Positions 1,144-46,289 of a stretch of DNA of 64,000 nucleotides are shown here, one piece after another. Under the pieces are notes generated by a model, which did no database searches, was not told where the DNA came from, and saw nothing but the letters and a program-made list of their open reading frames with translations. Within the stretch, counting starts at the first letter, position 1. Every line of letters begins with the position of its first letter. The DNA lies in NCBI GenBank assembly GCA_914767715.1, contig OU612069.1, forward strand, positions 29,867,579 to 29,931,578. Reading direction: 5' to 3'. The position numbers and the translations under genes are program-made. The stretch is from Membranipora membranacea (lineage: Eukaryota > Bryozoa > Gymnolaemata > Cheilostomatida > Membraniporidae).

Positions 1144-4100
1144 ATGGGTCGCGCAAAGACGCCCCGGACGTAAGTTAGAGAACCTCAGTCTATATGACTG
1201 AGACTAACACTGACTCATATCTGTATATATATATATATTCCATGTTTATTCTGGAGAAGAATAAGTCCTTAGGACTTGTACCCAGAAAACAGAAAAATTG
1301 ATAAAAATATGGTGTAGAATTAAAAAGACATGTAACTAAAAATCAAGAACAATGACAGGTAAAATTACAACGTACACGCAGGCATTAATTAGCAGTAAAA
1401 CATTACACAAGTTGATACACAATAGCTAGGAAAAGAAAAGTTAGAACAATGTAGCAGTAGGCTAAAATGAAATGATAAGAACTGACTCATTAATTGAGAA
1501 GTTTGAGGACGTGGCTCCGAGTGGCATTTTTGAATGTAGCAAGGGATTGACTCAGCTTAACATGATTGGGTAATTCGTTAAAATTCTGAGCACCGAAATT
1601 AGCTAAAGCAAATCTAAAATTTTCCTTGGATAGTCTAAACCCAGAACTTTTAGCAAGCCGAGTTTCACTAGTTAATTTCTCGGGGAGCAGATTGGTATCA
1701 ATTATTGGGACTAAACTATTAACAATTTTATAAAACGTCAGCAGATACAAATATTCGAAACGCAAAGTTAAAACAGGGATGTTGTAGGTCTTTCGAGTAT
1801 TATCTTTAGAACTGTTATAGTCTATAATTTTCAAACATCTATTCTCAATTTTTAAAAATTCTTTTTTGACATAGTCGTTTGTGGTAAATAAAACAGGAGA
1901 GCTGTATTCCAGATTAGAACGTATAAGTCCAATGTACCAAAGCTTAGCTAATTTAGGTGTCAGGAATTTTCTATTACGTTGAAAGTTGGTGACTATTGGA
2001 TAAAGTTTTTGTTTAATTTTACTGGTATGAGATTTAAAATTTAATTTGTTATCAAGAATCACACCTAAGTACTTAATTTTGTCAGATTGTTTGAAAATGA
2101 GATTATTAAATTTAAGTTCCGGAGGTTTGATGTTACGTTTATTAGAAATGGTCATGACATCCGTTTTGCCGCTGTTTAGAACAAGGCAATTTTCACTGTA
2201 CCAACTGGATGCTTGATGAATGCTTCTTTCCATAAGTTTTGTGGAAATGTCTGGGTTTTCCCCACTGGTGACTAGTAGGCAGTCATCAGCATATAGATAA
2301 CAATTTTTGAGCTCCATCAGATCGTTAATAAACATGATAAACAGGAGTGGTCCAAGTACAGACCCCTGCGGCACACCAGTTATAACTCGACTGCATTCAG
2401 ATACACAACCATTAATTTTCATGGCCTGCTCTCGACTTGAAAGATAATTTTTAATTAAATTTGATGCATTAGTGTGGAAATTGAATTTCGTTAACAGTTT
2501 ACTGGCAAGGATCTTATGGTTTACGCAATCAAAAGCTTTACGGATATCAAGTGCAGAAAATGTGACAAATTTTGACTCGTGCTTTGACAGCAGGGAACGA
2601 AATTTGTTGACTAGTTGAGTTAAAATTTGATCAGTGGATGTTCCATTTCTGAAACCAAATTGGCGAGAGGCTATTAGATCATTAATCTCCAGGTAATCAC
2701 GAATTTGGTAATTTATTATCTTTTCTAGGACTTTACTTAATATTGGCAATAGCGAAATTGGTCTATAATTATTTGGCAAACTTTTCTTGCCACTTTTGAA
2801 AATTGGAATTACTAAGGCTTTTTTCCACACATCTGGAAACTCTTGACATTTAAGGCTCAGATTAACAATATGTGTCAATGGATTCAGAATCAAAGGCTCT
2901 AGGATTTTATAAATAAAGGCAGGGATCTGATTTAATCCCCCAGTTTTGCGTGATTTCAATGTGTGCAGATATTTAGACACCTCACTCGATGTAATTTCTT
3001 GAAAAGCAAATTTTGGAAAACTGAAAGCTTTATCATTATCAAAGCCTGAGTAACTTTTACTGGACAATAGCTTAGCCTCTCCATTGAGATTGGCACCAAT
3101 GCTAGAAAAATACCTATTTAGACATTCAGCGATCACTGGGCTTTCAGAAGTGTTGCAATTTTCAGATTCAATTTCTTGAATGACATTATTGCCTTGGTAA
3201 TTTTTACCTTGGAAAATTTTGATTTTTGCCATTGGTCTAATGTTTTATCATTAAGAACTGCTCTCATTGCTCGCTTTTTGGCATCTCTTACTGCATTTGT
3301 TGCCTTGTTACGGATTAAACGATAATGCTCCCAGGCAGTAGAATTTTTATCAAATCCCGTCTCAACAAACTTTTGAAATGCATCTTTTTTAAGGCTTGTT
3401 AGTTTAGATGCCACTGGACACTTCCAACAAAGATTGTTTTTTTGCTTTAAGCGTTGGGTTTTAAATGGTGCAAACTGCTCCACCAATAATTCTATTTTTG
3501 ATTCTAAAATATCTGCTGCTTCGTGAACACAGTGAACATTCTCTACAATATGAAAATCGAGAGATTTCGCACTATTAAAAAACTCAAGATCATCAAAATT
3601 TCTGAAATCTCGCTTAGTGACATAAGAAAAGCCGGCCTTAGGCCTTTTTAGATTAACTTTCATTTGAATTGCAAAATGATCACTTATATCACTTTTTATA
3701 ACCTTGTGTTCAGGTACTAAATTTTGAACATTTGAGAAAAGTAAGTCGATCGTAGTATTGGAATCTTTAAAACATCTAGTATACTCTCTAACGAGCTGTT
3801 CATATTGATGAAGTCTCATAAGGGTTTCAAGATTTTCTTTCGCTTGTGAATTACCGGACCAGTCAATGTTAAAATCACCTATAATTACAGTTGGCTTTCG
3901 TAAATTGTGAGCATCCAATAGCTTTTCAAAATTACAGGAAACATCGGTGCTTGCAACACAAGGTGGATTGTAAACAAGGACCAAACAAAATCTAGACTCA
4001 GCAATAACAATTTCGATGCATAGAACTTCGGTCCCACCATGTGAAGTCAAATCAACTTTTTCGAATTTTATGTTTTGTTTAACATAAACAGCCAGCCCGC

Positions 4101-7100
4101 CACCACGTGTAGTCAAACCCCTATCCTTACGAATCAATACATAACCAGGTAGTTGAAAATTGTTGTCATAATGAGAGCCATTAAACCAAGTTTCCGAAAA
4201 ACAGATTATGTCATTATTGACCAAATCAGGAGTTAGTCTGAACTCATCAAAATGTTTAGGCAAAGATCTTATATTTAGATGGACAATACTTAACATTCAG
4301 AATGATGCGACTATCTGGTAACAAGCTCATAGAAGTTTTGACCTAGCCGGATGTGTTCTGTTGTTTGCGAGGTCTTAGTATAGGTGCTGACTGATTGGTT
4401 TCAGACGTAGAGTTCTCCTGAAGCTTGTCAAGATCATTTACACAAGTGATAAGGATGCGGTTGGCTCTTTCATTATACCGCACATATATGTTCATATCCT
4501 GGGTCCATACAAACTTGTAGCCAAGCTCTTTCACTTTATCTTTAGTCTTGAAATACAGCTCAGACTGAGATTTAGTGAGGTGTTCATGTATGTAGATCTT
4601 ACCGCTGCTGCCGAGTCCAAGTTGGTCATGGGTCACTTTCTTCTTTGTGCGACTTGCATACATTAGTTTTTTCATACAACGTCTGGTAAATTTGACGTAA
4701 ATCCTGGGTGTTACCTTTCCCTGCTTCTCTCTCCGAACCGGCATACGATACACAGTGCTGATATCTGATAGTGACATTTCCATATCCATTGCTGTAGCTA
4801 TGCTTAATACAATATCCTCCACATTCTCATTTGATGATACAGATACGTTGTGTATCTCTAGACTATCTCCTCTGTCATATCTCTCCATCATATCAAGTCG
4901 CCGTCTCAACTCGCCATTATCTCCTTCCAGCTGCTGAACTTTGGTCTCCAACACTCCACTCCTGCCTTCAAGATTCTGAACCTTAGTCTCCAACTCTCCA
5001 ACCTTTTTCAAAAGTTTCTGCTCCAGATCAAGGCACATCGAATCTAACTTTGCAGCAAACTCCGCCTTTACTGTCTCCAACCATTTGTCCATCGCCTGCT
5101 TCATTTCTTTAGACAACCCCATACCTTGAACGTGTATGGACTCAGTTGATTATAGCGCAGGGGCTTGGGCCTACGCCCTGGCCCACTATAACAATGAAAG
5201 TTGTCAGTCAAATAATCTCGAGAATAGATGTTTTCTCAAGTTATCAGTGGTCCTTATTAATCCAGCTAATGAAGTAAATTTGGTTAACTCCAGAGATTAA
5301 GAGTAATGATGAAATATCCTTGAATATCCAATAAGATTGTCAGTGTGATGTCTAAAATCTGTTGATGTGTATAATAATAAACAGTAGTTCACTAATAGTC
5401 TGTAATTGCTATTGTTAACAATAGAGAGCACATAATGAATACAACCTTACTCTCCAACAAACAAGCTAATTAGCTATTATAGGATAAGCTGATGCCTCAG
5501 TTAGAAGGTCTGTCTATCAGCTCACCAGGGGGCGCTGTAGGAGCTGCTTATAGATACCGAGACGAGGCGGAGCATCAGTTAGCCTGGGAGAGAGGAAACA
5601 TAGACTATACAGGTGTAGATAGGTCAGTATGTCATAGGTTATAGGTCATAGGTTATATAACAGGTGTAGATAGGTCAGTAAGTCATGGGTTATAGGTCAT
5701 AGGTTATATAACAGGTGTAGATAGGTCAGTAAGTCATGGGTTATAGGTCATAGGTTATATAACAGGTGTAGATAGGTCAGTAAGTCATGGGTCATAGGTC
5801 ATAGGTTATATAGCAGGTGTAGATAGGTCAGTAAGTCATGGGTTATAGGTCATAGGTTATATAACAGGTGTAGATAGGTCAGTAAGTCATGGGTTATAGG
5901 TCATGGGTTATATAACAGGAGTAGATAGGTCAGTAAGTCATGGGTCATAGGTTATATAACAGGTGTAGATAGGTGAGTAAGTCATGGGTTATAGGTCATA
6001 GGTTATATAACAGGTGTAGATAGGTCAGTAAGTCATGGGTTATAGGTCATAGGTTATATAACAGGTGTAGATAGGTCAGTAAGTCATGGGTTATAGGTCA
6101 TAGGTTATATAACAGGTATAGATAGGTCAGTTAGTCATGGGTTATATAATAGGTGTAGATAGGTCAGTAAGTCATGGGGGGGGAGGGGAAACAAAGCATG
6201 TCAACTCTTGCACTGCTCGACGTCGAACAGCATGGATTAAATATTGTCTTCTCTTACGATCGGGGAGATAAATTCTTTATCACACTAATCAATTTGTATA
6301 GGAAAATGGAGGTGTTGGTTTTCCCAAACCCCCCACCCACCGAACAAAGCTTGTTAGGACAGGCTGAATTATAACTTGTTGTGCGAGAGGCCCGAGTTTA
6401 TATCCGTATGAAGCCAGATTTCATTTAAATTATCAGCTCTTTTTCTACTTGGTGGTTTAACTGTTTTGTCACGGTACCTATTTAATATTACTTACACCCA
6501 CTAAACCTGGATTATTTCGCACTGAGCTCAGCAAGCTTCATCGGGTTAGCGTGGCTGAGCGCTTGCCGCTTAGAGTGTTTGATCTCAGCGCGAGAGACCC
6601 AAGTTTAAATTCCGGTGAGGCAAGATTAAAAAAAGCAAGGAGGAGCATGAAGAGGACCCCTTATTTTTATATAATATATATATTAATAGACTACAATTAT
6701 AACATTTTTGTTGCGCTATATTCTATGGCCGTATTCACTGAGAATAATTGTTGGGGAGTTCTGCCACATAATAAGACAATGATACTCTGGCTGTCTAGCT
6801 CATAGGTGGTATGGAATGGACATTTTAATTTTAGTTTGCACTTATAATGACATCGCCCATTGGCCATCCATCATAAACTCAATCGACAACCTGAGTGTAT
6901 GTCATCCACACCCCTGAAGTTTTGTGGCATTTATGATTGCTGCTTTTCTAGTTATTATACATATAATATTTATTATTATATGTATAATATTTTATATTCT
7001 GTTTTTAGTTTTGTCAACATTCAGGCTCACCTGGATAAGAGAATATCATCATCTACAGCTGCTCCAGATGTCCGACCCAAGATACCGCCTCACTCAGCTA

Positions 7101-7201: not shown

Positions 7202-10132
7202 ACTAGCAGGTGAAATAAGCGATTATTATTTCCATGTTGCCTATGTGTATGTCCAGACATGTCTAAGTCTAATACTGTAGTTTCTATAAGCTGTGATTCT
7301 TTGAGCTTTCAAGAACAAAAAAATACCAGAATTGTTATCTTCTCCTGTTTTTTGGAGTATAAGATAAAATCTATTATATGACTGTATGTAATAATTCACT
7401 ACTTAGTATGATGTTATAATAGTTGAGTAGTTTAGTTTGTCTCAGACTATCTTTGTCTCTTAAGTCTGTTCAGTTATTAGATAGTGAGATGATGAATATA
7501 TAACTTAATCTCTCTGTAAGCTGATACTACCCACTGATGAGAATTCTGTGTATTGTTATAATAATATATCATCTTATTCATATAAATCTGAGCTTTCTGT
7601 TGATTTTTTGCTCTTCTACTTGTTTGTTACCAAAGATAACATTAGCCGAACTATTCTGGTATTTTGTTATTCTCTGAGGACTTGTCATATTTTTGTACTT
7701 CTTACTATGATTGTTTTTGATGATCTGTGATGATCTTTTTCTACTCGGCTCTATAAAAAAAATCTTATTTTCTTTTCTAATAATATCACTTTGTTCTGGT
7801 TTGAATAATTAGTAACTAGTAAATTACACGTTTTATAATTTAATACCCTACACAGTTGGCAACAGAGAGGTCGGGAGGGGAGTGGGAGGGGAGTGGGTGT
7901 AGGAAAACCAGTTGAGGGTGTGGCTGAACCTAAATTTGAGGGCTCTGGGTATACCATACACAAATGAGCAAACCATCAGTGTCTAAAACTGTTGCAGACC
8001 TGGAAACGTTTAACTTACTTATAAGAATCAGGGTTCCCAAGTCACTGCTTGATGCTGGGGCTTTATACTATGCTGACAAAGTTTAATATGAAGGTGAATG
8101 ACATTGTGGTAATTGCTTGGAAACATAAAATATGTGAGTGGGAAAGGGAAAGGGATACCAACAGTAGGTGTGAGTTCAACTTAGAAAAAGATTAGGCAAA
8201 ATGTTGTAGATAGGCGTACGATGGATAAAACGTCTGTCATTACTGCTGAATCGCCACAGCGAGTTAAACACAATATTGTTACCTAATTTAGTTCCCAAAC
8301 TTTAAAACATTTATAGTGCCAAAAACGATAAGAAAAATGAGTACAATTAAACTCACCACCATATCGAGAGGTGTCTAGATTTAGTGTTCAGTGGTCGATG
8401 TCCATTATAGACTGTTCAGAGTATTCATTGTGATGGTTGATTGAATACAATTACCATGTAGAATATGGTTAAATACAGATACACTGAGTCAGGATATTTT
8501 AGAGCGACAAATCTGATTGGCTGATTTGAGAAAAGATAAGACAACTCTTTTAGATTAAAGATTTAGATTCAGATTAAACTTCCTAATACAATTATGAAAC
8601 ATGTAAAAAGCTTATGCATTCAAAGTATCACTGTGACTGCCGCAATATCTCATTGAGTTTAAATTTTCATTTTTGTTTAAGATTATCTATAGTTTCAGAT
8701 CACTTGAGAAGCAAAACAAGGTCCATTTAAAATCAGAATCTCAAAACAACAGAAACTAATTTTGTGACGACATTAAACCGGAGTCAACTTGATACTGCAT
8801 TGATTAGTTATTGTTTATTTGTTTTACAAATCAATGTTGACCACACTACAGAAGTTCAGGTTAAAATGGCTGTGAAGTGAAGTTACTAAAACTGCCAGTA
8901 AGAACTAAAACTATTCATAGAAAAAGTAAGAAAACTAAACTGTAACCTTTTATATCTGGCACGCAATTTTATGAAGAAATTCTCTCTAGGGATACGGTCT
9001 AGTGATTTATGGATGATAAAGATGATTAGAGAAATCTTATCATCATGATAAGTAAAATGATGCTAAAATATAGATTAAAATGACTCACAATTACAAAATT
9101 TAATACTATTAAACATAGCATAATCAATGAAGCATGAGTGAGTTAAATACCCATCAAATAATATGTTACTTAACATTTATGATGAAATTAGATAAAATGC
9201 TAATAGGAGGGATGACCAGTGGTATTCATCTCAATTTATTACTGAAGATTTTTCAAAAAGGACACAACTTTCTATTGAAAATAATACCAGTTCACTTTGA
9301 GTTTGATTCGTTATAATTGCGTTCCCCGGGGATTGTGAGATGAGAAGATGGACCAATTACTGAGCACATTTACCATTGCTATTTGGGATGATTGAGTGTT
9401 TGATTGTTTGGGTGTAATTAGTTCCTGTTCTTCATAACGTCCATAAATCGGTGAGAAACATGGTGTGTAAGTGACACATAATGTAAACCCCTCATATTCT
9501 GGTGTCGTAGTATAAAATCAACCTGTCCTTATATTTGATTATTGGGTATCTTCTTCACTTCAAATGTGAGCATCTTCATCGGTCTTCCAGCAGATAAAGT
9601 TTTCGCGTCTACCTCTACAAAGATATTCATTTAATTGTCATCATTGTGATCATGAATTTTGGAAGCCACTCAACTCCTAGCCTATGCAGAGTTTTCCTTC
9701 AAGAAGATACATGACATTATAGCTGGATATTTTATTGAAGGAATGAAGCCCTACATTTAAAAAAGACTCTCTTCACTTATTAATTCGGGCTGCATGCAGG
9801 TCTCCATAGAGACAGGAGATTGAATTGTGACATATTGACTTATCATTAACCACTTTTATAATGTGAACCATGGAAGTGAAGGGTCTGAGCAGTGTTTATA
9901 AATCTTAAGACTCATATTTAGGCTTGAAAATCCACTTCTCAAGTCTGATAGGTGGGAAACAACCCCCCCCCCTGATATGAAGGGTCCAGTCTTAAATGGA
10001 TAATGGGAACAATGAAGAAATTAATGATGCTTTTGGGAGTTGACTTTAGTTCAACTGAGTAATAGTAACACTTGTATTATATAGTGCAATATTCATAAGT
10101 AAGGCTGGGACAAAAGGAGAACAGTCCAACAT
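7202..10132. other. Intergenic sequence without recognised genes
   Basis: AT-rich sequence between the stop of the small + strand gene and the stop of the ROCO-caspase gene. It should hold both 3' UTRs. No canonical AATAAA was obvious right after the + strand stop. Open frames of 60-70 codons (7548, 7751, 9134) have no recognisable features. Short homopolymers occur (C-run near 9965). Confidence 0.5.
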
Positions 10133-10810
10133 TTATGGAGGCTTACTTCTGACAGTCAAAAGTAGCAGCAGGAAGTCAACTATAGCCCACAATGTCATCG
10201 TAAAATCATACTGCGGAATATTATGCTGGCAAAGCGAATATTCACCTTTGTATTGTATCTCAGTTTTCCTGGGATTTGGTAGTTCAGGGTTGAGAAGTGA
10301 TTCCGGATGATTATCTGTCCTCATATTAACTCCTGGTGATAGATAGAGCTTCCTCTCATTAGTAAACGTACAGATTGTGACTGGTAGCTGTCCTGCACCA
10401 TGCTGTAGAGCTGCTTCTCTTACAACCCTCCGAATCTTAGCGATAAATAAACAGAGCCAATAATAAGGTTATGATGATGAATGTGGAAGTACACGTAGGG
10501 GTCACTGATCATATTTCCCCTCACAGACAAGAAACAAAGTCATGAATTTCTGGAACAACTTTCAAACATGCTATTATAATCCTCCGGAATTTATAAGTAT
10601 TACTGAATTTCAGAAGCTAAGACATATTATGACTGAAGAGTAATAAACATTTTGCTATGTCAATGTCAATGTGCATATCGAACAAAGATCATATAACACC
10701 TACTGTGTCACTGAGCTGGTTTACATGCTTTCTTCCTGCTTGCTGGTAGAATGTACCCACTAAAGCTCTGATGAACATTGAACCTTTGTATTTCCTCCAT
10801 GAAACATAGT
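10133..10810 (-). CDS. Caspase p10 remainder and C-terminal tail (two exons)
   Basis: Exon 10704-10810 encodes DYVSWRKYKGSMFIRALVG, the p10 block whose SWR arginine helps form the S1 pocket. I chose the donor GTAGGT over a nearby GTGTTA because it keeps phase with the next exon. Exon 10133-10435 encodes QLPVTICTFTNERKLYLSPG, the usual end of the caspase fold, and then about 60 extra residues ending in a hydrophobic stretch (WAIVDFLLLLLTV). The tail could be an anchor or could be intronic, since a GGTGAAT donor-like site lies about 20 codons before it. Confidence 0.85.
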
Positions 10811-13800
10811 CTATAATTGGAAAATATTCATCAGCGACAGACTTCGGATATCAGACACATCGACAGACTTCGGATATCAGACACAGTTACATTTATCATT
10901 TTAAGGTTTAGTAGGTTTAGTATTTCCATAATTGGGCAACATCTGCATGATGGACCGAAATTCATGCACAGGCCTACGTTTAGTATTTTTAAAGGAACAG
11001 CTAGCCCTTAAAAGCGTTCGGGATGGCGATCGCGGCAGTAGGCGGTTGTTAAGTGGGTGGGTGGGAAGCTAGGAAACTCCGTTTTTGCAATTTATCACTC
11101 TTTGAACTTTAGCACCTGTTTACAGCTCTTTTGCCTCATCTCAAAGAGTTCTAACCCTGTTTTTGAGATTCCTCATACCTTAAAACATACATCTATGTTG
11201 TCACATCAATAAAATAACACAAATGTGCAGACTTATTAATGGTTGTCTTCTCCTATGTCTGGGCATTTTCAGACACGGCACTTGTCGGAGCCTCGAAAAT
11301 GATTTATGTAAATTAAGGCTCGCTAGAAATGGTCCTTAGGCTATGTTATATGTGTTGATATGAGATTGTCTTCTTTTTTCCCTATATTTTCCCATGCTAA
11401 TTAAATAGTTGTCTTCCCATGACAATAAAATCTGACCGAAACGATAACTCCTAATAAAATATAACGAGTCTTATTCATTTTAAACAAGCTAGCAAAAGTG
11501 CCGTGTCTGAGAATATCCAGACATAGGAGAAGACAACCATTAATAAGTCTGCACATTTATGTTATTTTATTGATGTGACAACATACATGTATGTTTTAAG
11601 GTATGAGAAATCTGAAAAACAGAGTAAGAACTCTGTAGGATGAGGCAAAAGTGCTGTAAACAGGTGCTAAAGTTAAAAAAGTAACAAATTGCAAAAACGG
11701 AGTTTCCTAGCTTCCCACCCACCCCCTTAACGACCGCGATCGCCATCCCGAACGCTTTTAAGGGCTGGCTGTGTTTTGAGGCAGAAATGTGTATGGGTGA
11801 CCCAGTTTCATTTTTCGGGGCCAAATATTGGTATTTGAAGCTATCATTTGTATGCAGGATCCAATTTGGATTGAAGTGTTTAGTAAAGCAAAAAACATCC
11901 ACTGTTCATATCAAAGTATTCTCATGACGATGGATAAAAAACTAAATATACTCACGCAGGGACATTATTGAATGATATAACCGATTTCAAAGAGAAAAAG
12001 ACAGGGTCCAGAGTATGTTATCTCCCCTGTTACAAATTGACTTTTAAATATCTTTGCCTAAGCTACATTAAATTGGTACATGTCGGCGATAATGTCAGGT
12101 GTAAGTATAGCACTTTGTACCTGTCATAGGGAAATTAAGGCTAATGGATCATCGATATGAACATGGTTGTGTTTTGCTTTCCTAAACACTTTAATCCATG
12201 TAAATATGGGATTGGACTGACTTGGGCTCAAGCAAGTTTTTGGCTTATCGGCTCTTATTGGATCAACAAGTCTTCAAAGTGTGCTGCAACTAGGAATGAC
12301 TGCTAAGGACTAGAGAGTGCGGTATGCTGCTCAAAAGTGAGAATGCTTCTTATCAGTCGTTTATAGCCTAAGCCTGAGTAGGTAGGGCCTAATCAACAAT
12401 TCCCGTGATTGGCTGATACAGAGAAATCAACTTAATAACATCACACAAACATTAAACAATAAACCATAAAATTTTGCAGAGAACTCAATAGATTCAAAAT
12501 GATGATCCTCACCATCAAAACTTGATTTGAAGATTATGAGATCATCCATACAGAGGTGACCATCTTCCCTTCTACTAAGATGCGGAACTGCGTCGGTAAG
12601 AAGAGGGACTGCCTGGCTTGGTGATCTATTATCGAGCCTAGATATGGCAGCTGAACCCACACGGTTATCCCCTGTGAGGAGAAATGTTAATATTCACATA
12701 AGTATTTTCCATCATGCTTTTGCCGGAATTTACTGTTTTTAACACAAGGGCTATGGACAAAGCCGATTTGAACCCAAAATCTTACACCCTGTTCATGTAG
12801 ATCCCGTTATCACCAATGAGACCTTATTGGAATCTATCGAGTGCGTAACTCAGTTCTGAAAATGTTCTCAATTGTAATCATTAATAATAATAATAATAAT
12901 CATTCTTCAATGAAATCTTCCTGTGGATCATTTACCGCTCTCTGTATCCATACCATCGAGACATCTTGTTGATGCCAACTCTTGTTCCAATGAGTCAGGT
13001 GCATCATCATCAGTAGCCCCTGGATTATGTGTGTCCTTTACCATCAAGTGAACTGTTGAATGAATTAAGTCATTATTTTATTATGAAAACTGTACATTTC
13101 AGTGCCAATTAAAAAAAATTGAACCACCTTACAGTTAAATTAAGTCCTCAGTTGCTATTAATAATTCACACAAAGTATCAACACAGGAAAAGGACCATAT
13201 CTACTACACTGGTACTCTCAAAAGTTCATGGACACAAAACTAACACGAAATGCGCCAAACTCAAAAACATTCTGTTCAACAAACCTCCAGAACAGGCCTG
13301 TAGGACAACCATCTTTGGTTTGCCTTTTATAGCTGGGAAGTTCTTTGGTGAGAGAAGTCTGTAAATGTCTACAAGTTTGATGTGTTTGTGTTCATTTCCT
13401 TCTTTGGCAATGATTGTACCTGTGTCTCCATGGCTCATCATTACCAACACAAACATTCCCAGAGCTGAATGTACTGGTGTTCTTGTTCTGCTGTCTACAA
13501 GCTGTGTCTCATCGTGTATGGCCTGAACCATTTCCTAAGAATAAATTTAATAGGGCTGCTGTGTCAATGATGCGAACAACGATCTATTTTGTTGACATGA
13601 TGCTCGACCCAATATCAGTGAAAAACACAGCAAAATCCTTTCTCACTTAACAGATTATTTGTAGTTGATTGCCTGAAAATTAGGAGGTACTGTTGCGAGA
13701 AACCATATTCTGTTGAAAATATTGTTTAGAATTTAGTCAGATACCTTTGCATCCCAGTTTTTGTCACCGCTTAGTTCACTAATGATGAAGCCAAAGTTAG

Positions 13801-16800
13801 TGAACATGTGTTTCAGGTTGACAAAGTCATTCTCAGAGCCTCTTCTTTGTTCGGCCTTGACCGCTGATGATTCATCTCTGATATTGATTATCAGAACACG
13901 CCCTCTGGTAGGAGTCATTCTGTACACCTGCATATATCAAAGTGGTGACCATAATTAAGTGAAAAAACTTAATATCATATTTCCAAGTATACCCTTAATA
14001 CTTACTAACATTGTAATTGATACACATGTCAAATAATGATGATTTACGCAACAAAAAGAAAAAACATATCAAAATACTCCTCCAGTTTATAACTGTTACG
14101 CTCCTCACCTTTTCTTGAGCAGGTTTGATATATAGTGCAGTCTGGTAGACAGGAAGCATCTGAATGATTTCTTCCCCATCGTTTACGAGCTTGACAATTT
14201 TTCTGCCTCCTTCTGGTTTACTTTCTTCTATGTATTTTTTCAGCGTTTTTATCTCTGATTCTGTCAGTTTCTTACCTAGTAAATATGATTATAACATGCG
14301 TAAAGAACATACATGAACATTTTGGACAATTTTGAGGAGGAATTCCAAAAAGTCTGTATGGCATAATTATTGCGGCAAGTCCCTTTGACACTGCGATACT
14401 ATAATGGAAAACTAGGAACAGCCATAGTATTCTTACATGGTTGAAGAAGTGCATCGGGTATTCTCTTTGCTTCTTGACCGCAACTTGGTGATCTCACAGA
14501 TTTTCTACCTTTGGACATTGGTGTCATAGAGTTGTGAAGAAGGGCATCTATATCAAGATATGCTGGATTAGCTGTACCATGGAGAACACAGTGGGGACAG
14601 GGCATCTCTATTACAAACTTAGAAGCTGACCACGCTTCTTTTGCAACATCTTGCAGTTTTTTGAGGACTTTTGTCAACATCTCCCAGATGAGATTGATAT
14701 GTTCAGCACTTCCATCTACTCTTAGCTCCACTCTCTGATCTTCAATCTGGTGAATGAGTTGAACATCAACCTCCTGACCTAAGAACCTAGCCTCAGCACC
14801 ATTTCCATAGGGGAACATCTGATATGATTCTCTACTAAGAGCCTGTAAGAATGCGACAGTCATCTGGTTGAATGCATAGTCTGGGACTTTTAGCCCGTGA
14901 AATTTCATTGTTATGTGAAGTTTCACAGTAGCACTGTGTTCAACAAACGCGTGCTTTTGCATGAAGTAAGGCAGCAGATATGATTTAGACATTCCATTAA
15001 CGGTCACTGGTCCATAGATCAACATGAATTTCTTGAGAAGTGCAATCGCAACATTGAATGGGATACTAGTCTGGTCGGAGGATAAGAGGTTGAGCATTTT
15101 CTGGTGTTCTATAACCCTGTTACAAGCGAAGCTATCCATACTACTGCATGTAGCTGTTGAACTGTTGATAACAATCCTCTCCTGCATAGAATGGCTGTAG
15201 AGAATACTAATGAGCCTTGTGACGGCTGGAATATTGTGAAATATTATTTTGGATAAACATTCCCCATCATCAATCAACTCATCACTGTCATCATCATCAA
15301 TTCCTCTCTCACGACCATCCCCACCATCGCTGTCATTTGCCCTGCCAGGTCTGCTTTCGCCCATGTCACCTCTGTCACCACTATCTTCTCCATCAGAACT
15401 TGTACGGCATTCATCACTAACCCCACCATCACCAAACTCATCATCGTCACCACCCTCCCGACCATTTCCACCACGACCTTCATTGTCATCACTCGTTAGC
15501 TCAATTTGCATAGGTCTATCTAAATAGTCCGCGGTATAAACACCCTCCCTACCGTCTTCATCATAACCCTCACTGACCATGTTACCTCTGTCACTGTCAC
15601 TGTCACTGTCACTGTCACTGTCACTGTCACTGTCACTGTCACTCTCCTCACCATCACTATCATATTTCAGAATCATACCGGAGCGCTGCATGTAACCTAA
15701 AATAGCATTCAACACCCTTTGTCCGCGATTTGCAGGAAGTTTAGAAATCTGCAAGCATCCCTCATCTTTCTGTGCTGTGATAGTATTCATTTCCTTAATC
15801 CAGGAGGCTGGTAGCGTCTGCTTACTCTGACTTACACGCTGTATCAGCAAAGATTGCAGTTTACTAAGACCACTAGCAGCCCTGTTTTGGCCGTATCCTA
15901 TTTCAAAAATATGATCAACCTCAAAAATGTCCCGGGGGCCTTGCAACAATTTGATGTTTTTGGCGATGTCACTGTCTTCCAGTAATTCCTTACAAAGAAC
16001 TTGGATTGTATCGATGAGGCCTCTTTTCAGCTTGTCAAGCTCCTCTGTTGTATCAAATTTGTCGGAGTGAGTCAGAGCTAACAGGGGCTTCTCTACTTGT
16101 GGAGATACGAGCAGCAGGTGGGAGAGCCAGTCGAATACGACCCTTCTGGTAGCTTCCCGCTCCCCCGATTCTCGAACTCGCTTTCCATAGTCCTCTATAT
16201 CTACTACAACAATAGGAATGCAGTCTGTGCAGCATGTTACTTGATAGGCGTACTGATAAACATCGTCCCCGCCGAAATCAATGACCTTTGTTTGATGTTC
16301 CCTCTCATCACCTCCTAGTTGGATGGTCTGAAACTCGAATACAAGTGTCTTCTCAATGTCATTTACTATTTCTGGTTCAAAATCATTCTGCATCGCCTTG
16401 AGCAATGTTGTTTTCCCGGCCTCTTTCCTTCCCAACAAAACAACTGTAGACAGAGCAATTATTTTCTTTCCTTGTTCCAAATCCTGGTAGTACTGTTTTA
16501 TGTCTTCCATCCCTCCCTCACACACCGCATAAGGGGGCTCAGTTAGTTTCCTACAGCCTTCAGTCTCTAGATCCTGGATTGCTGAAGTAGCAATCCAAGA
16601 ATGAATCTGAGTCAGTGAAGAGTTATGGGATACATCGAGCCGTGTCAGACTCTTTAGATTTTCCATGCTAAAAACAACAAATTTACCATGACACTAATTG
16701 AACTACTTTATAGGATATGTATTGTCTTGTTGCTGTAGGCACCTAGCCAAATACCTCATTTAATTGACGTTCTTTTTACTAAGCATAAAGTTTATTTGCA

Positions 16801-16905
16801 ATATTTTACAGCTTATAAAGACATAGGGTCATAGAGTAAAGCATAGTAAAACACCTAACAAACCTTACCCCTTCAGCTCAGCTTGATAAACCCGACACCC
16901 CAGGT
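10133..16905 (-). CDS. LRR-Roc-COR-caspase fusion protein (ROCO-caspase), 5' end not found
   Basis: Exons read from the - strand are 16869-16905 (tentative), 14437-16667, 14109-14275, 13745-13927, 13285-13534, 12513-12671, 10704-10810 and 10133-10435 (stop at 10133-10135). Every junction has GT-AG and matching phase. Domains in order: end of an LRR (NLKSLTRLDVSHN), Roc GTPase, COR with an acidic insert, a Cys-rich segment, a linker, caspase p20 and caspase p10. Roc-COR modules bind GTP and dimerise; caspases are activated by being brought together. A natural inference is that Roc-COR or LRR sensing drives proximity activation of the attached protease, as in apoptotic or inflammatory platforms, but without a CARD or death-domain adaptor. 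The donor of exon 13285-13534 (GTTTGT) is weak. A foldback transposon sits in the intron between 10810 and 12513. LRR exons upstream of 16905 are expected but were not found. Confidence 0.85.
10997..11772. mobile_element. Foldback DNA element with about 280 bp inverted arms
   Basis: The arm 10997-11288 is repeated inverted at 11496-11772, sharing ends ACAGCYAGCCCTTAAAAGCG and the inner GACACGGCACTT-type block, around a 200 bp core. No transposase is present, so it is non-autonomous. A possible 8 bp target duplication (TTTAAAGG against TTTTGAGG) is imperfect. It lies in an intron of the caspase part of the ROCO-caspase gene. A weaker inverted pair lies outside it at about 11848-11915 and 12150-12220. 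Confidence 0.85.
12513..14275 (-). CDS. Linker, caspase p20 and start of p10 (four exons)
   Basis: Exon 14109-14275 encodes a basic-acidic linker (IKTLKKYIEESKPEGG). Exon 13745-13927 begins p20 with RGRVLIINI and has RRGSENDF, the position of the S1-pocket arginine and the R.GT..D block. Exon 13285-13534 has the catalytic His in MMSHGD and the catalytic Cys in QACSGG, matching the family QACxG pattern with Ser in place of Arg. Exon 12513-12671 carries the inter-subunit linker with possible cleavage aspartates (SRLD, LLTD) and starts p10 (DDLIIFKSSF). Both catalytic residues are kept, so this looks like a protease rather than a pseudo-caspase. All junctions keep phase. Confidence 0.9.
14437..16667 (-). 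CDS. Main exon: LRR end, Roc GTPase and COR domain
   Basis: A large internal exon, acceptor TTTTTAG at 16668-16670 and donor GTAAGA below 14437. Counting from the Met at 16666, the P-loop GRKEAGKT is at about 79-86, the switch II DFGG at 130-133 and the guanine-specificity motif THSDKFD at 199-205, so the GTPase looks functional. COR begins with LPASWIKEM and GMILKY, is interrupted by (SD)n and a long Asp/Glu/Gly/Ser-rich insert of about 120 residues, then resumes with IIFHNIPAVTRLI and YLLPYFMQ. CPHC and a later SPSC form a Cys-rich segment common after COR in invertebrate ROCO proteins. The GTP-binding motifs and COR assignment are visible in sequence; the signalling role is inference. Confidence 0.9.
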
Positions 16906-25090: not shown

Positions 25091-25592
25091 TTGCAAATTC
25101 CAAAAAAACGTCCAGATATTATAGTAGAACATCTTCCCACTGCAACACATTTAGTATCAGTATTACAACATAATAGCTGGGGAACAATTTCGACCAGACA
25201 TCCCTGCCAGAGAGTCGCTTCATCAACAAACATCAATGGTCCTGAGATATTAATAGGTCAAGTGAAAGCTGTGCTAAAAAGCATCAACAGCTCAAAATCT
25301 GTGATTAGCCATGATTGTCATGCATGGATTAGCCAAAAGTATAGAGAAGACCTCTGTGTTCCTGTAACTAGCATCGTAATCTTCTACTCTACAAACCTGC
25401 AGCTGCCATTCGCTGAATAAAACAGCTGAGATAACACCTATCGCTAAGACAACATCTCCAGCTCTATGTAAGGATTATCACCCCCTCTCCCTACTTTGGC
25501 ACATAGGCAAAGTAATTGAAACTTTCATGAACAAACAACTCCAAAATGAGCTATCAACAAAACTGGAACCGAACCAATTTGCCTACCGGGGG
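25091..25592 (+). pseudogene. Non-LTR reverse transcriptase N-terminal fragment
   Basis: Two frames together cover the region before and at the start of a LINE reverse transcriptase. 25091-25420 contains HAWISQKYREDLCVPVTS. From about 25390 a second frame reads AEITPIAK, KDYHPLSLLWHIGKVIE and LEPNQFAYR, the expected TPIxK, DYRPISLL and QFAYR blocks. A frameshift separates them, and the fragment ends abruptly at a hexamer array, before any catalytic motif. Confidence 0.8.
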
Positions 25593-25624
25593 GCCGTCGG
25601 ACGGGGGGCAAAGTCTGGGGGGCT

Positions 25625-25806
25625 TGTCTTGTCCTTGTCCGTGTCCTTATCCTTATCCTTATCCTTATCCGTATCCGTATCCGTATCCGTATCCTCATCC
25701 TCATCCTCATCCGCATCCGCATCCGCATCCGCATCCGCATCCGCATCCTTAACCTTATCCTTATCCTTATCCTTATCCTTATCCTTTTCCTTATACTTAT
25801 CCTTAT
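25625..25806 (+). repeat. Hexamer microsatellite (TTATCC family)
   Basis: About 29 hexamers in blocks: CTTATC, then CGTATC, CTCATC, CGCATC, then CTTATC again. The near mirror-symmetric order of variants suggests stepwise expansion. The array keeps a frame open between two retrotransposon fragments. Confidence 0.92.
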
Positions 25807-25808
25807 CG

Positions 25809-27491
25809 TATGAGACAGCAGAGAAGTATCAGCCATTGGAATTGGAGTGTCTAGCGGTCGTATTTGCATGCAACAAGTTTGACCAGTACATATATGGAAA
25901 AAGGGACCTGACGGTGCTGTCGGACCACAGGCCTCTGGAGACCATATTGAAGAAGGAAATGGAAAAGTCACCACTGAGATTACAAAAGATGCTACTGTCA
26001 CTGCAGAGATATGGCATGGATCTTGAGTACCGACCTGGTCATGAACAAGTGGTAGCTGACATGCTCTCAAGAGCAGCTAAAAAGACTGGAGATACAACAG
26101 GCTATCAGGACACTAAGTCTGAGGTGTTTCTTATGGGCCTGGATGAGTCTGATCCGACAGAATATACGGACATGTCTGATATGAGACTCAAGAAAATGAA
26201 AGAAGTGAGCTCTGATGACTCATTATACCAACAGCTAATAAAGAATATCACAGGGGGATGGCCCAACAGAAGAGACAGATGTCCCCAGGAGATCCAAAAC
26301 TACTGGACGTGTCAGGAGGAATTAGCAGTTAAGGACGGATTGATATATCGAGCAGCGAGATTGGTAGTACCAATAAACATGGTGAGAGAGGTGTGTGAGG
26401 CATTGCATCAGGCACATCAATCAGCAGAGACCATGCTAAGGAGAGCTCGAGACATCCTGTATTGGCCAGGGATGGTCGATGACCTTCAGAAAACAGCAGA
26501 TGAGTGTCGGCCATGTCTACTGGACAAGCCAAAGAATCAGAAAGAAACCATCAGACTGCATGACTTCCCAAAGACAGCGTTTGCTAAAGTTGGCACTGAC
26601 ATAATGTACCATCAAGGAAAATCGCATCTGATCATAGTGGACTACATGTCTGACTTCATAGAGGCTCTCAAGCTTGGTGATGAAACAGCAAATACAGTAA
26701 TTGAAGCATGCAAATCAGTCTTTGCAAGACATGGAGTGCCTATCTGGCTGCAGAGTGATAATGCTCCATACTATACCAGCTACGAGTTTAAAAGATTTAC
26801 AGAAGAGTGGCAAATAAACCACACAACTTCATCGCCCATACATCCACGCAGCAATGGGAAAGCAGAAGCAGCTGTGAAGACAGTCAAGCACATGGTTAAA
26901 TCATCAAGTGATCCATGGAGAGCGCTGATGGAATGGCGGGCATCCCCGAACCGGGATTTTAAGAGCCCATGTGAGCGACTGTATTCAAGGAAAATACGGA
27001 CATTGGTACCTCAACCAAGCGAGAGCTACATACTAATAGAACACTCTGAAGAGGAGACAGCTCAGGCACGAGAGCACAGATAAAGACGGATGGCAACATC
27101 TTACAACAAACATAGCAAAGACCTGAACCCATTAGTGCATGGACAACCAGTGCTACTACAGACGGTAAATGATCGAGCCAGGAAATGGAGACCAGCTAGA
27201 GTATTGGAACCTCTCTCTGATCGCTCCTATCTCATTGAAAACGATGCAGGGAATGTTGTACGAAGAAATCGAACAGCTATGCAAGCAGTACCGGCAAACT
27301 CCGAGCAGCAACAGGAATATGGTCAGGCAAAGACAACCAGAACACAGAGACCAGCTCGGTCTTCTATAGAACCTCTTGTAGATCAGGAGAGCAAGCAGCA
27401 GGCACCAATGCAGCTGCCGAGAACGCCGAAAAAGACCAGGTCTGGACGGTCAGTAAGAGAGCCCTCTTACTTGTCCGATTACGTGCACTAG
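25809..27491 (+). pseudogene. Ty3-type retrotransposon RNase H and integrase, 5' truncated, one stop
   Basis: The frame begins within RNase H (LELECLAVVFACNKF, LSDHRPLE, YRPGHEQVVADMLSRA). Integrase follows: an HHCC zinc finger (HQAHQS, CRPC), the DDE core (GTDIMY, LQSDNAPYY, NGKAEAAV) and a C-terminal part (HGQPVLL, KWRPARV, YLIENDAGNVVRRN). A TAA at 27081-27083 interrupts the frame and the same frame continues to 27491, so only one nonsense codon breaks integrase. Gag, protease and the reverse transcriptase core are missing. Neither LTR was identified. This family integrates reverse-transcribed element DNA; this copy cannot act alone. Confidence 0.9.
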
Positions 27492-28881: not shown

Positions 28882-31560
28882 CTAAGAAAACTGCTGGAAA
28901 AGGCTTTTCGATCTTAAAGCCGTGCGGCATTTATCTTTAATATGTCGCCCGCTATGTGTAGATATCCGGCCAGTGTTTGATTGGTTGTATAGTGTATGAC
29001 TAGGACTGGCTCGCAAACACCTTACATATTTCTCACACAGAGTTGTTAATCTGGTGGTGATGGTTGGCAACCCGGTTTCTTGAAGGCGATTTTCGGTGTG
29101 CTCTAGGTCTGGGTATATAAACCGGAGACAGTGGCGTTGGTATTTCTCGAGTCTCTCTGCATCACATTTTCCCTAGTTGTGGAAACCAGCATTGTGCAGC
29201 GTATGTTATATGCGGCAGTACGCGGGTCTGGTAAAAGAAGGTTATGTGGCGATTCCTGACCCCTGCTTTCCGCAGTTGGCACAACGCGTGAAATTTTGGT
29301 CGGAACTTTTCGATAATTGTTAAGACATGGGCAGAAAACTTCAGATGACGATCGAATGTCACACCCAACAGCTTTACATTGTCACTGTTACTGACTGCTG
29401 AGTCGTTAATGCTGATTAGGTTGATGTTGATTGTTTTCTGCAGCGTGAAGATTATCGACAGAGATTTAGCGGCATTCAGAAGCATGCTATTCTTCTCGCA
29501 CCATAGTGATGCTTGATCAGCTGCATTCTGGAGTTGGTTTTCATGGAGCTCCAGTATACTGGCTGTTCTTGGCGTTATGTCAGTAATCAGCATTAGCTTT
29601 GATTATCGCGTGATAGAGGGTTGAATCATCTGCGTATTTTATGTGTGGCACGTCAGGAGTTAGGTCAATGATATAGATGTTCAATAATACTGGACCTAAT
29701 ATCGTTCCTTGTGGCACGCCTATGTGACAGGACTGATACGCTGATGTGTGGTTCCTATACCTAACACACTGAGATCTATTTGAGAGAAAGCTTTCGACTA
29801 GTTTGATTGTTACAGGATTGATGGTCATGTAAATGAGTTTGGTGACAGCGATATTCGGCTGCATGCGGTCGAATGCCTTGGAAAAATCCAACATTAGTGA
29901 TCTTACACCAAGACATCCTTTGTTATCCAATTTGTCTATGATATCAGATGTAAATTTCACCAATGCATCTGTTGTACCGATGTTAGGGGTGTATGCGTAT
30001 TGATGAGTGATAGTGGTAATTGAGCTCGCAGTTGTTTTGCGATGATACGCTCAGTGGTTTTCCCCAGGTGGAACAAGAGGCTAATAGGTCGCATGTCTTC
30101 GAATTTGTTTGGGTGTTTTACTTTGGGTATGAGAGTCACCTCAGCTTTCTTCCAAAGACATGGGAAGTATCCATTAGCGAGTATGGCATTGATGATATTT
30201 GTGATTGGCTTGCTCATAATATGGCTATTGTTCTTCGTTAGCCAGCTTGGGAAGTAAAGCGATGGAGTGGCTTATTGTGTGTCTATGTTGTCAAGTAATT
30301 GGAATACCTCCAGTTCAGTAACTTGATAGGGGTTTCCCGTAGCTGGATTATCCGGGACAACCAGCTCGTTATGTCCTTGCAGGCAGTAATCATCCAGCTT
30401 TGGTGGGAAGTCAACAGCTGATAGCCATGAATCCTCAATAAATATGTGACCAGAGTGATTTGTCCTATGGCTCTCTCCAGTTATAGCTGTCGAATGTTGT
30501 TCCACCAGGTTTTTGTCCCATGTATGGTATTGTTGATTTTTTGATCGGTCTTTTGGTGAAGAGCCCGTTTCTGCATATTAGTCAGCTGCTTTGCTAGGAA
30601 TTTTCAAACAGGGTTACCATTTTTGTGAGCAGTCCTTTTGGCACGCTTTAGTTTCCGATTAAAGGAGATGTTATATAAGATTTGCCTACTGGCACGCGTT
30701 TGGAACGTATTGGGCAGTGTTTTTCGAGGATTTGATTTACTGTAGTATGGATGATTCCAACTTTTCGATCGATATCAGTTGTATCGTTTAACTCATTCCA
30801 GGACTGAGCTGGAAGTTTCTGCGTGAGTGCCATTTTGGCTTTTGGAGTAATGTCTCTCTTTTTGATAGTGATGTATTTCGGTGGTCGATTACGAGCTGTT
30901 GATTGCAGGACTACCGCACAGTGATCATTAGTGGATATGGGTGCTTCTTGCGTGCAGCCTTCAGCCTTGTATTCCTTTATATCAGTGAAGATCAAGTCTA
31001 GCGTGTTTTGCTCTCGAGTAGCGAAGTTCACGATTTGGTCGAGAGGATACAGGTTGATTATTTCAGTAGTGTCTAGGTCATTAAAATCACCGCACAAGAT
31101 GACTTTTGCTGACTTGTGCTTTTTGATGTTCTTAGCGATCGGAGTGATTATATGATTTATCGTGCTGTCAGCTTGCTGTTTTCGAAGGCTAGGTGGGCTA
31201 TAGATACCTCAGAATATGACCAGGTTATGCCCTTGCTGCTTTACTAGAAACCATCATGCTGACACTTCACTGTTGTTGTTCTCGGCTAATTTAGTCACAG
31301 GTATGTTGTCACGTATATATATCGCCACGCCGCCTATACGATTTTTCTTATGACAAGCTAACAGAGAAAAACCATCTATCGCATACAATTGTTCTTTGCC
31401 ACTGGAAAGTCAAGACTCAGTTAACACTATGATGTCAAGGTTTTGGGCTAATGTTTTCAGTTCCGATGGTTAAGAGAGCGTATGTTGTGCATGTGAATGC
31501 TAGGCAGGAATGTCTGAGTTTGATGAGGTTGATGTTTAGCTATTGTAATGTGAATTAGTT
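28882..31560 (-). pseudogene. Decayed non-LTR retrotransposon (endonuclease plus reverse transcriptase)
   Basis: On the - strand an endonuclease part (LTESWLSSGK, GGVAIYIRDNIPV, CGDFNDLDT, STNDHCAV) lies at about 30650-31450. It is followed by reverse transcriptase pieces in different frames: MRPISLLFHLGK (29957-30217), MLDFSKAFDRM, GVPQGTILGPVL and KYADDSTLY (29580-29963), VKLLGVTFD (29162-29593) and a C-terminal part (28882-29160). Stops and frameshifts break it at several points. It differs clearly from the younger element at 1.2-5.2 kb. Confidence 0.9.
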
Positions 31561-39658: not shown

Positions 39659-40115
39659 TCATAGCTGTGAGCTTTGGGAGGGAAATAATGACAGAGGATT
39701 TTCTACAATTACACTGCGGAATAACAAAGCCACAAACAGATTTATGTGATTTTCTTTACGTCGAAATTTCTGATCGACATATAGTTCTATGATGGACTCA
39801 CACCGCTTTATAATATTATTCACAGACTGTGGGGCAGCCACAAGGCCACCTCTATCCTTTATGTTCAGTTACTGTGTAGATTTGTTACTGATGTGACCTC
39901 GTTTCTCAACCAAAGCTTCGGCACATAAGATGTGCTGGAAAAGTGACCACTGAAGGAACGGCATCAGTTTTAGATATGACTGTCTCGGCACTACGGCGTA
40001 ATCACTATCTTTAAAATGGTCGGAGCACAATTTTGTCGACTTCTCAGCATTGAAGCCCTCTCTCTTCGTCGCAACCACCAATATTTTGGTTAGCTCAGGG
40101 TCTTTCAGTGGAAAT
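39659..40115 (-). pseudogene. THAP-transposase remnant with internal deletion
   Basis: After an acceptor (TTATTTAG at about 40116), the frame reads FPLKDPELTKIL, then TKLCSDHFKDSDY, the second half of a THAP zinc finger (C..H ligands). Within a few residues it passes to HILCAEALVEKRG and, after a stop and in another frame, KDRGGLVAAPQSVNNI, resembling the C-terminal end of THAP-type transposases. The catalytic middle is missing. The first THAP cysteine pair may be CVAPNC on the - strand near 42320, which is speculative. The Drosophila KP element is a known parallel: a P element with an internal deletion. Confidence 0.65.
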
Positions 40116-40335
40116 CTAAATAACAATGCATCGATACAACGATTATTGTTTGATTATGTATTCAAGTCTGATTCAATAACTACACAAAAACGCTAGTGGT
40201 AATACATCCGTGAGTCTATTGATAGGCCTGAATGATACTGTTATGTTTTTGGTGCCCTTGAATTCTAAAGCTCTGCTCTGACAAATGCAAAGAGTACAAA
40301 ATAACAGTATAACAGTCATTGGTACCATTGAAGGT

Positions 40336-45206: not shown

Positions 45207-45640
45207 TATACTGATACAACAAAGAATAATGTTTTAAAATTGTATAAATATAAGACATTAAACTGTTGGCCTTTTCTAATTAACAACTCAGCTGTTACGG
45301 CTTAATCTGCTCCAACTTTTTCTGTAGAATATTGTCTTTCATCTAAGTGTTACGTATAGTTTATTTTGCAGCCAAAATGGAATAAGATTCAACAAACAAT
45401 TGGGATTTTATTCTATAATTGATTGAGCTCTATCATAGACTTGGTAAGAAACCTAGATATATGTGAGGCATTAGCAGTGAGGCATTTAATTATGGGTCAC
45501 CGGCAGCTCACATACCAGGCTTTTTATTGATAACTCGACCAATTTCGATCATATTTCGAGTGTGAAAATGCAACAGGCAGCTTGTTGTTAGCAGTTTGAT
45601 ATCAATTTTTATCTTCACAATTTTTCCAAGATAAAAAACA

Positions 45641-46289
45641 ACATCCGACTGATACCAAGACACAGAACATCCGACTGATACCAAGACACAGAACATCCGA
45701 CTGATACCAAGACACAGAACATCCGACTGATACCAAGACACAGAACATCCGACTGATACCAAGACACAGAACATCCGACTGATACCAAGACACAGAACAT
45801 CCGACTGATACCAAGACACAGAACATCCGACTGATACCAAGACACAGAACATCCGACTGATACCAAGACACAGAACATCCGACTGATACCAAGACACAGA
45901 ACATCCGACTGATACCAAGACACAGAACATCCGACTGATACCAAGACACAGAACATCCGACTGATACCAAGACACAGAACATCCGACTGATACCAAGACA
46001 CAGAACATCCGACTGATACCAAGACACAGAACATCCGACTGATACCAAGACACAGAACATCCGACTGATACCAAGACACAGAACATCCGACTGATACCAA
46101 GACACAGAACATCCGACTGATACCAAGACACAGAACATCCGACTGATACCAAGACACAGAACATCCGACTGATACCAAGACACAGAACATCCGACTGATA
46201 CCAAGACACAGAACATCCGACTGATACCAAGACACAGAACATCCGACTGATACCAAGACACAGAACATCCGACTGATACCAAGACACAG
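45641..46289. repeat. 26 bp tandem array, about 25 near-identical copies
   Basis: The unit is ACATCCGACTGATACCAAGA plus CACAGA. By eye all copies are identical, unlike the diverged arrays nearby, so it is young or strongly homogenised. All - strand frames are open only because the unit lacks stops. Confidence 0.95.

Follow-up and report, generated by a model that had tools for sequence, protein, structure and literature searches.

The stretch of DNA analysed here (the window) comprises 64,000 nucleotides of the bryozoan Membranipora membranacea, positions 29867579-29931578 of contig OU612069.1 (C5), in a 339-Mb genome of 18 contigs. On its - strand, nine exons between positions 16667 and 9529 join in phase and encode one predicted protein of 1162 amino acids plus stop, which carries, in this order, the last leucine-rich repeat (LRR), a Roc domain, a COR domain interrupted by an acidic insertion, and a caspase of animal type. 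All eight introns (161, 181, 210, 232, 264, 1702, 268 and 631 bp) have GT-AG borders. A first-pass annotation had proposed a single - strand gene joining an LRR end, Roc, COR and caspase in seven exons; the single gene, its phase continuity and its splice sites are confirmed, while the exon number has been raised to nine. What was observed directly, in this gene and in related loci (L numbers), is the order of the domains, the openness of the frames, the motifs, the number of copies and the recurrence of intron positions; these are described below.

Exon 1 (14437..16667, acceptor TTTTTAG/C, donor CCAT/GTAAGA, the slash marking the exon border) encodes the last LRR, Roc and COR, and remains open over 743 codons plus one base; the probability of such an open frame by chance, calculated from base composition, is about 2e-22. 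It contains the P-loop GRKEAGKTT (residues 79-87, 16406..16432), the Roc GTPase with the start of COR-A (residues about 72-337, 15656..16453), the acidic low-complexity insertion in COR (residues 339-487, 15206..15652, including a CTGTCA array that keeps the frame at 15588-15643) and the remaining COR-A with COR-B (residues 488-743, 14437..15205, ending in CPHC...P..L..PC). Exon 2 (14109..14275), placed by the splice model, is the linker between COR and caspase. The p20 part of the caspase starts in exon 3 (13745..13927), which includes the S1 arginine R827 (13844-13846), and continues in exon 4 (13285..13534) with the catalytic residues H895 (13430-13432) and C941 (13292-13294). An Asp-rich intersubunit linker is encoded by exon 5 (12936..13052, splice model) and extends into exon 6 (12513..12671), where p10 begins with DDLIIFKSSFD. 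Exon 7 (10704..10810) provides the p10 core with SWR and the S1 arginine R1041 (10794-10796), and exon 8 (10246..10435) the end of p10 (KLYLSPG) and a C-terminal extension; exons 6 and 8 are based on the splice model and on alignment with PDB sequences. The last 27 complete codons and the stop codon TAA are in exon 9 (9529..9614), with AATAAA at 9240.

Both ends of the model allow alternatives. The last exon had first been extended to a stop codon at 10133; it contains an in-phase donor, AAAG/GTGAAT, leading to the ninth exon at 9614-9529, and we prefer this exon, without proof, to read-through of exon 8, which is a possible alternative. At the other end, the first codon of exon 1 is ATG (16666) in the window and ATT in both of its tandem copies (L019 and L021), and it follows an acceptor-like AG/C, so that this ATG is probably not the ancestral start. 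In intron 6, an inverted pair of about 287 bp (window about 10996-11282 and 11495-11771) appeared as secondary matches when the gene was aligned with its copies, and could be a small transposon.

The caspase part matches PF00656 with 95.5 bits (E 5e-27, cut-off 21.4) over residues 807-1096, covering positions 1-229 of the 233-position profile, and its best match in PDB is caspase-1 (6.4e-13). The catalytic His and Cys and the S1 arginines named in the first-pass annotation are present as SHG (894-896), QAC (939-941), R827 and SWR (1039-1041). In the PDB alignments R827, H895, Q939, C941 and R1041 stand opposite the corresponding residues of caspase-1, which serve in its S1 pocket and in catalysis.

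For the LRR-Roc-COR part, evidence had to be collected from several comparisons. In a domain search of the spliced protein, the caspase alone of the domains expected from the first pass exceeded its Pfam cut-off. Against the assignment of Roc and COR stand the scores of Roc (24.8 bits) and COR-B (19.6 bits), both below the cut-off of 27, the lack of any Pfam match for COR-A in the window protein alone, a non-significant hhalign comparison of the COR piece past the insertion with bacterial Roc-COR (probability 4), and a VIA-align ranking of this piece in which unrelated folds stand above Roco. Three other members were scanned with Pfam Roc, of which L027 passes the cut-off (28.7 bits) and L034 and L048 fail (26.1 and 24.1 bits). 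On the other side, the window protein has the GTPase motifs GRKEAGKT, DFGG and THSD, and the P-loop, D[FL]GG and THxD, as well as a CxHC pair closing COR, are found in all 16 aligned family members. A profile of 12 members matches bacterial Roc-COR with an E of 4.5e-21, spanning Roc, COR-A and COR-B, and matches Roco chains of C. tepidum and others in PDB with E from 4e-17 to 2e-16, in the LRR end and Roc only (profile positions 38-158). Exon 1 finds bacterial Roco structures in PDB (4wnr, 6.8e-5), and the window protein alone aligns with bacterial Roc-COR by hhalign (E 2.5e-8) over residues 76-337, where the insertion starts. For the COR piece past the insertion, the five best Foldseek rows are all C. 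tepidum Roco (best E 1.4e-4, from a poor model with a predicted local distance difference test score of 46); because of the VIA-align ranking, this match is support, not proof. No NACHT or NB-ARC was found among Pfam matches up to E 1, which included Roc and other GTPase or P-loop families. The family profile comparison and the Foldseek result together support the predicted Roc and COR domains.

On the sensor side, LRRs were searched with a home-made profile of ten synthetic repeats following the general LRR consensus. Of the LRR end described in the first pass, a single repeat is recognisable in the window gene (17.6 bits; the next match has 8.1), and the same profile detected no array of LRRs in the rest of the window or in the 6 kb upstream of either tandem copy, which weighs against a receptor role of these genes. 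Since only one LRR is visible in the window's subfamily, its sensing part may be encoded at another place or have been lost. Upstream LRR exons are present in several other members, such as four similar ones in L033. L048 has one open frame of 1633 codons (cut at the locus start) in which about 40 LRRs precede Roc and COR; the exons after it contain MSHG and IQAC. By pattern, 41 repeat units were counted, and Pfam LRR_14 gives 517.6 bits. Because this is a single open frame, the LRR-Roc-COR fusion at L048 needs no splice model.

The window gene belongs to a large family. Genome searches were scored for the best candidates, namely 140 of 515 for PF00656, 60 of 485 for the Roc-COR exon of the window and 69 of 258 for that of L027, and the numbers of modules and caspases are therefore lower bounds. 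We obtained at least 145 PF00656 rows, and at least 88 and 69 Roc-COR rows with the window and L027 exons, respectively. After merging, at least 118 distinct Roc-COR modules, with no stop in the matched stretch, are distributed on nine contigs (mainly 27, 25, 19, 15, 14 and 11 listed modules on C1, C3, C8, C9, C10 and C5, respectively). An independently detected PF00656 row follows 77 of them on the same strand, at most 5 kb downstream (median distance 1520 bp), and none has one downstream on the opposite strand or upstream. When caspase positions were rotated in 200 trials, the mean number of such pairs was 0.18 and the maximum four; guessed sizes were used for contigs C2 and C6, neither of which carries a module, in both the rotated and the random controls.

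Modules with no linked caspase were also inspected. Of the first 60 modules, 31 had no listed caspase; nine of these were opened, and caspase sequence was present in all nine. Counting all unlinked modules opened, with L048 and L049 from the second list added, caspase sequence was found in 11 of 11, five of them in a divergent form, and for six it was detected by tblastn with E 1e-20 or better. In L042, p10 is above the cut-off of 21.4 (22.3 bits) and p20 below it (17.8 bits); in L043 and L045, inspection alone revealed MSHG and a QAC motif, both within open frames; L048 has a p10 match of 41.4 bits downstream; and L049 has divergent caspase frames by inspection. A separate class of Roc-COR modules without caspase was considered and rejected, since every such module opened carries one, and the missing caspases are at least partly a detection gap. 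In total, out of at least 118 modules, a caspase is seen in each of the 88 that were linked (77) or opened (11), and in these 88 no effector other than a caspase was found. The divergent subfamily (L042, L043, L045, L048 and L049, on contigs C3, C11 and C1) has MSHG and QAC, with SWR not seen; L048 and L049 end in SLLKKLGVL, and their LRRs closely resemble those of bacterial Roco proteins.

The linkage was examined from the caspase side as well. Caspase loci L023-L038 were opened with as much as about 9 kb of upstream sequence, and 13 of the 16 had a Roc-COR exon there on the same strand. Weighing against a general pairing, L035 and L037 had none in that range, in L038 only the first 69 residues were matched, and weakly, and, among the rows scored, 67 of 145 caspase rows had no listed module within 5 kb upstream; some of these 67 are lone caspase frames in short loci (L011, L012), and others lie beside unscored modules (L032, L033) that are outside the 118. 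Distances between members in Roc-COR are correlated with those in the p20 exon (r 0.63 for 15 members; none of 5000 permutations as high), and with the two near copies removed r is 0.38 for 13 members (47 of 5000 permutations as high). This fits better with a long-lived Roc-COR and caspase pair than with free swapping.

These data bear on whether a ROCO gene and a neighbouring caspase gene have been wrongly joined by the splice model. If the Roc-COR exon is read past its donor, a stop is reached within 40 bases (the frame ends at 14399), and there is an in-frame ATG inside exon 2, both as expected if two genes were adjacent. However, the gap between exons 1 and 2 is only 161 bp, and AATAAA and ATTAAA are absent from intron 1. 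The donor at the COR end has the form CC[AGT]TGT[AG]AG, as in the window, in 14 of the 19 other loci scanned (the form differs in L039 and L046, and L028, L029 and L033 have no match to the pattern), and a donor just past QACxG is present at 17 of 18 family sites listed (L032 is the exception, and L034 is not listed). The short intron without a polyadenylation signal and the recurrence of this donor and of the domain order disfavour two genes, and the genome-wide order of Roc-COR followed by caspase (77 modules against none and none) leaves little room for chance neighbours. We therefore give the two-gene model hardly any credence and are nearly certain of the fusion of Roc-COR and caspase itself. 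The fusion is confirmed at the DNA level, and a predicted one-protein Roc-COR-caspase is well supported, which agrees with the one-protein part of the earlier proposal of a sensor-protease without adaptor.

Whether the copies are maintained was evaluated in the nearest relatives. The tandem copies L019 and L021 (1149 and 1211 amino acids) keep all nine exons with no internal stop. The acidic insertion differs in length among the three genes (149, 133 and 195 residues in the window, L019 and L021, respectively) and never breaks the frame; at the same site, the 13 more distant members that were aligned have 19-21 residues. The ratio of nonsynonymous to synonymous substitutions (dN/dS) among these near copies is only 0.5-0.6 overall, so that constraint on the window's subfamily is weakly shown. 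A set of functionless copies near a chromosome end, for the most part decayed or spread by transposition, would be consistent with this ratio, with the position of the window, about 31 kb short of the end of contig C5 (29963023 bases), and with its richness in minisatellites and retroelements. Against such decay, no internal stop occurs in any of the 88 and 69 match rows scored, at identities down to 28%, and catalytic and GTPase motifs are kept across members; we consider it very unlikely.

Conservation of the active site was checked in 24 Roc-linked loci besides the window, leaving out L048 and L049. The catalytic His is kept in all 24 (three weakly aligned), and the catalytic Cys in all 21 that align at that site. 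The p20 S1 arginine is clear in 19 of 24; L039 has Glu, L042 and L045 are weak, and L033 and L043 are unaligned. For the p10 arginine, few loci allowed a judgement: Arg is present in L019, L021, L025, L030 and L040, and was found by inspection in L023 (where a weak alignment gives Glu), L041, L044, L046 and L047, while L039 apparently lacks it. The Trp preceding it varies among members, which could alter specificity. These residues bear on the proposal that the fused protein is made and that its caspase part has no protease role but serves as a scaffold, peptide binder or brake. According to the accessible part of Kaur et al. (2020), of the caspase domains that occupy the effector position in bacterial ternary systems about 70% are inactive, and some members here diverge, such as L039 with DCC in place of QAC and Glu at the S1 arginine. 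Since the window copy has all key residues and H895 and C941 are kept at every alignable Roc-linked locus checked, we regard a non-proteolytic role as unlikely. Outside these loci, the best caspase match among those scored (L011:1501-2310, 131.1 bits, profile 1-232) has Asp where QAC has Gln and Ser where it has Cys, and is possibly a pseudo-caspase.

Among known ROCO proteins, LRRK1, LRRK2, DAPK1 and MFHAS1 share the Roc-COR switch and have a kinase or death domain in place of the caspase. In the NLR inflammasome and the Apaf-1 apoptosome, where LRR and NTPase modules activate caspases, the switch is a STAND (signal transduction ATPase with numerous domains) ATPase and the caspase is on a separate protein. 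The closest precedent is bacterial LRR-Roc-COR-caspase. The accessible part of Kaur et al. (2021, eLife 10:e70394, PMC8195603) describes bacterial LRR-AP-GTPase(Roc)-COR proteins, in conflict systems, with at least 24 C-terminal effector domains including caspase. Like the Membranipora family, they place an effector, in some cases a caspase, after LRR-Roc-COR and occur as several paralogs per genome; unlike it, they are bacterial and their effectors vary between paralogs, whereas the Membranipora gene is spliced and all 88 modules checked have an animal-type caspase. The first-pass annotation knew of no described system with this pairing, which does not hold for bacteria on that source; for animals, no description of Roc-COR-caspase was found in the open-access literature, a search with most subscription literature outside it. 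Thus the version with an animal caspase, like the large repertoire that it forms, appears undescribed in the searchable literature.

We also compared ten bacterial plasmid Roco genes, whose C-termini comprise two EAD11 (one just under cut-off), one EAD1, one TIR, one CHAT and five unrecognised; no PF00656 was found in these ten. The Nostoc sp. ATCC 53789 protein WP_159402710.1 (L006:3946-8550) is similar to the window gene in having LRR, Roc, COR and a caspase-fold protease, but the protease is CHAT (PF12770), not PF00656, with HFIGHG and NSCQG recognised by eye. Horizontal acquisition of a bacterial ROCO-caspase was considered and is not favoured, given the alignment of the caspase with caspase-1 and -3 of animals and the lack of PF00656 in all ten bacterial Roco genes scanned. 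In Photobacterium, a COR-domain gene (L008:3824-6562) lies between TniB/HTH (helix-turn-helix) and TniQ/Csy2 genes, and its surroundings look like a CRISPR-associated Tn7-like transposon.

Other eukaryotic systems share parts of this arrangement, as far as the accessible portions of the articles tell. Amphioxus LRRs-caspase and TNFR-caspase hybrids with QACXG resemble the window gene in joining a receptor part directly to a caspase and have been proposed as an adaptor-free shortcut, with artificial dimerisation of a fused caspase cited as sufficient for activation; the accessible main text has no mention of Roc or GTPase (PMC2575513). LRR/Roc/COR/TIR proteins of sea anemone (PMC5094078) and Aplysia (PMC9334734) combine animal Roc-COR with an immune effector, but the effector is TIR, not caspase; together with the amphioxus hybrids they are the closest animal cases found. 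Brown algae have a large LRR-ROC-COR family of proposed immune receptors with LRRs on separate exons, three members having a C-terminal peptidase domain, IPR009003; unlike the present family they are mostly effector-free, and the word caspase occurs 0 times in the accessible text (PMC11378527). A paper on the sponge Dysidea avara gives CASc and COR among the domain abbreviations for a figure on NLRs.

Roc-COR forms nucleotide-dependent dimers and caspases are activated by proximity. For this family we infer ligand sensing, a GTP switch, dimer-driven activation, cell death and an immune role as follows. N-terminal LRRs would hold or sense a ligand, and its binding would change the nucleotide state of Roc. 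Roc-COR would then form or rearrange a dimer and bring two C-terminal caspase units together; the paired caspases would cleave their own Asp-rich linker, which joins p20 to p10, and the enzyme released in this way would cut targets after aspartate, leading to cell death or an immune response. This is the simplest model for the family, and such a sensor-protease would need no adaptor. We think it fairly probable that the large gene family encodes single-chain LRR-Roc-COR-caspase receptor-proteases, in which a GTP-switched dimer brings caspases together.

Judged from its genes, the family resembles a repertoire of receptors for immunity or cell death, each made in one piece. The same molecular switch could instead serve an expanded allorecognition (self or non-self) or developmental death system. 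The large arrays on C1, C3, C8, C9 and C10 suit any recognition repertoire, and nothing in our analysis separates this use from pathogen sensing; we consider it a real possibility, though an improbable one. Since the repertoire is large, recognition of either kind is testable by expression and population variation. Returning to the receptor-protease, we see an even chance of a broader reading: an animal repertoire of well over 100 adaptor-free, GTP-switched receptor-caspases. It would be a third way, beside inflammasome and apoptosome, of organising innate receptors that activate caspases, and would have arisen when a bacterial-type LRR-Roc-COR captured an animal caspase, in parallel to bacterial LRR-Roc-COR-caspase and -CHAT. 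If the proteins work as their domains suggest, danger detection and the start of proteolysis would be carried out by a single GTP-switched molecule, without a STAND ATPase plus adaptor, and the family would be an animal counterpart of bacterial LRR-Roc-COR conflict proteins. It would also provide a clean system for asking whether Roc-COR dimerisation drives an effector, a question that to our knowledge is still open for LRRK2 and DAPK1.

Several repeats and mobile elements were noted elsewhere in the window. Minisatellites are located at 48903-54090 (173 copies of a 30-mer), 57811-59650 (123 copies of a 15-mer) and 45640-46289 (25 copies of a 26-mer with 100% match), and these large arrays near the end of contig C5 are probably subtelomeric. 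Elements resembling long interspersed nuclear elements, with reverse transcriptase and endonuclease frames, are on the - strand at 1493-5149, with a Baculo_FP_2nd frame upstream, and at 28885-31208. A retroelement pol fragment at 25380-27083 (+) contains RNase H, H2C2 and integrase core regions, and its frame includes an array of hexamer repeats. Open frames on the - strand resemble, by eye only, THAP (39869-40153) and SH3 (47426-47644) domains.

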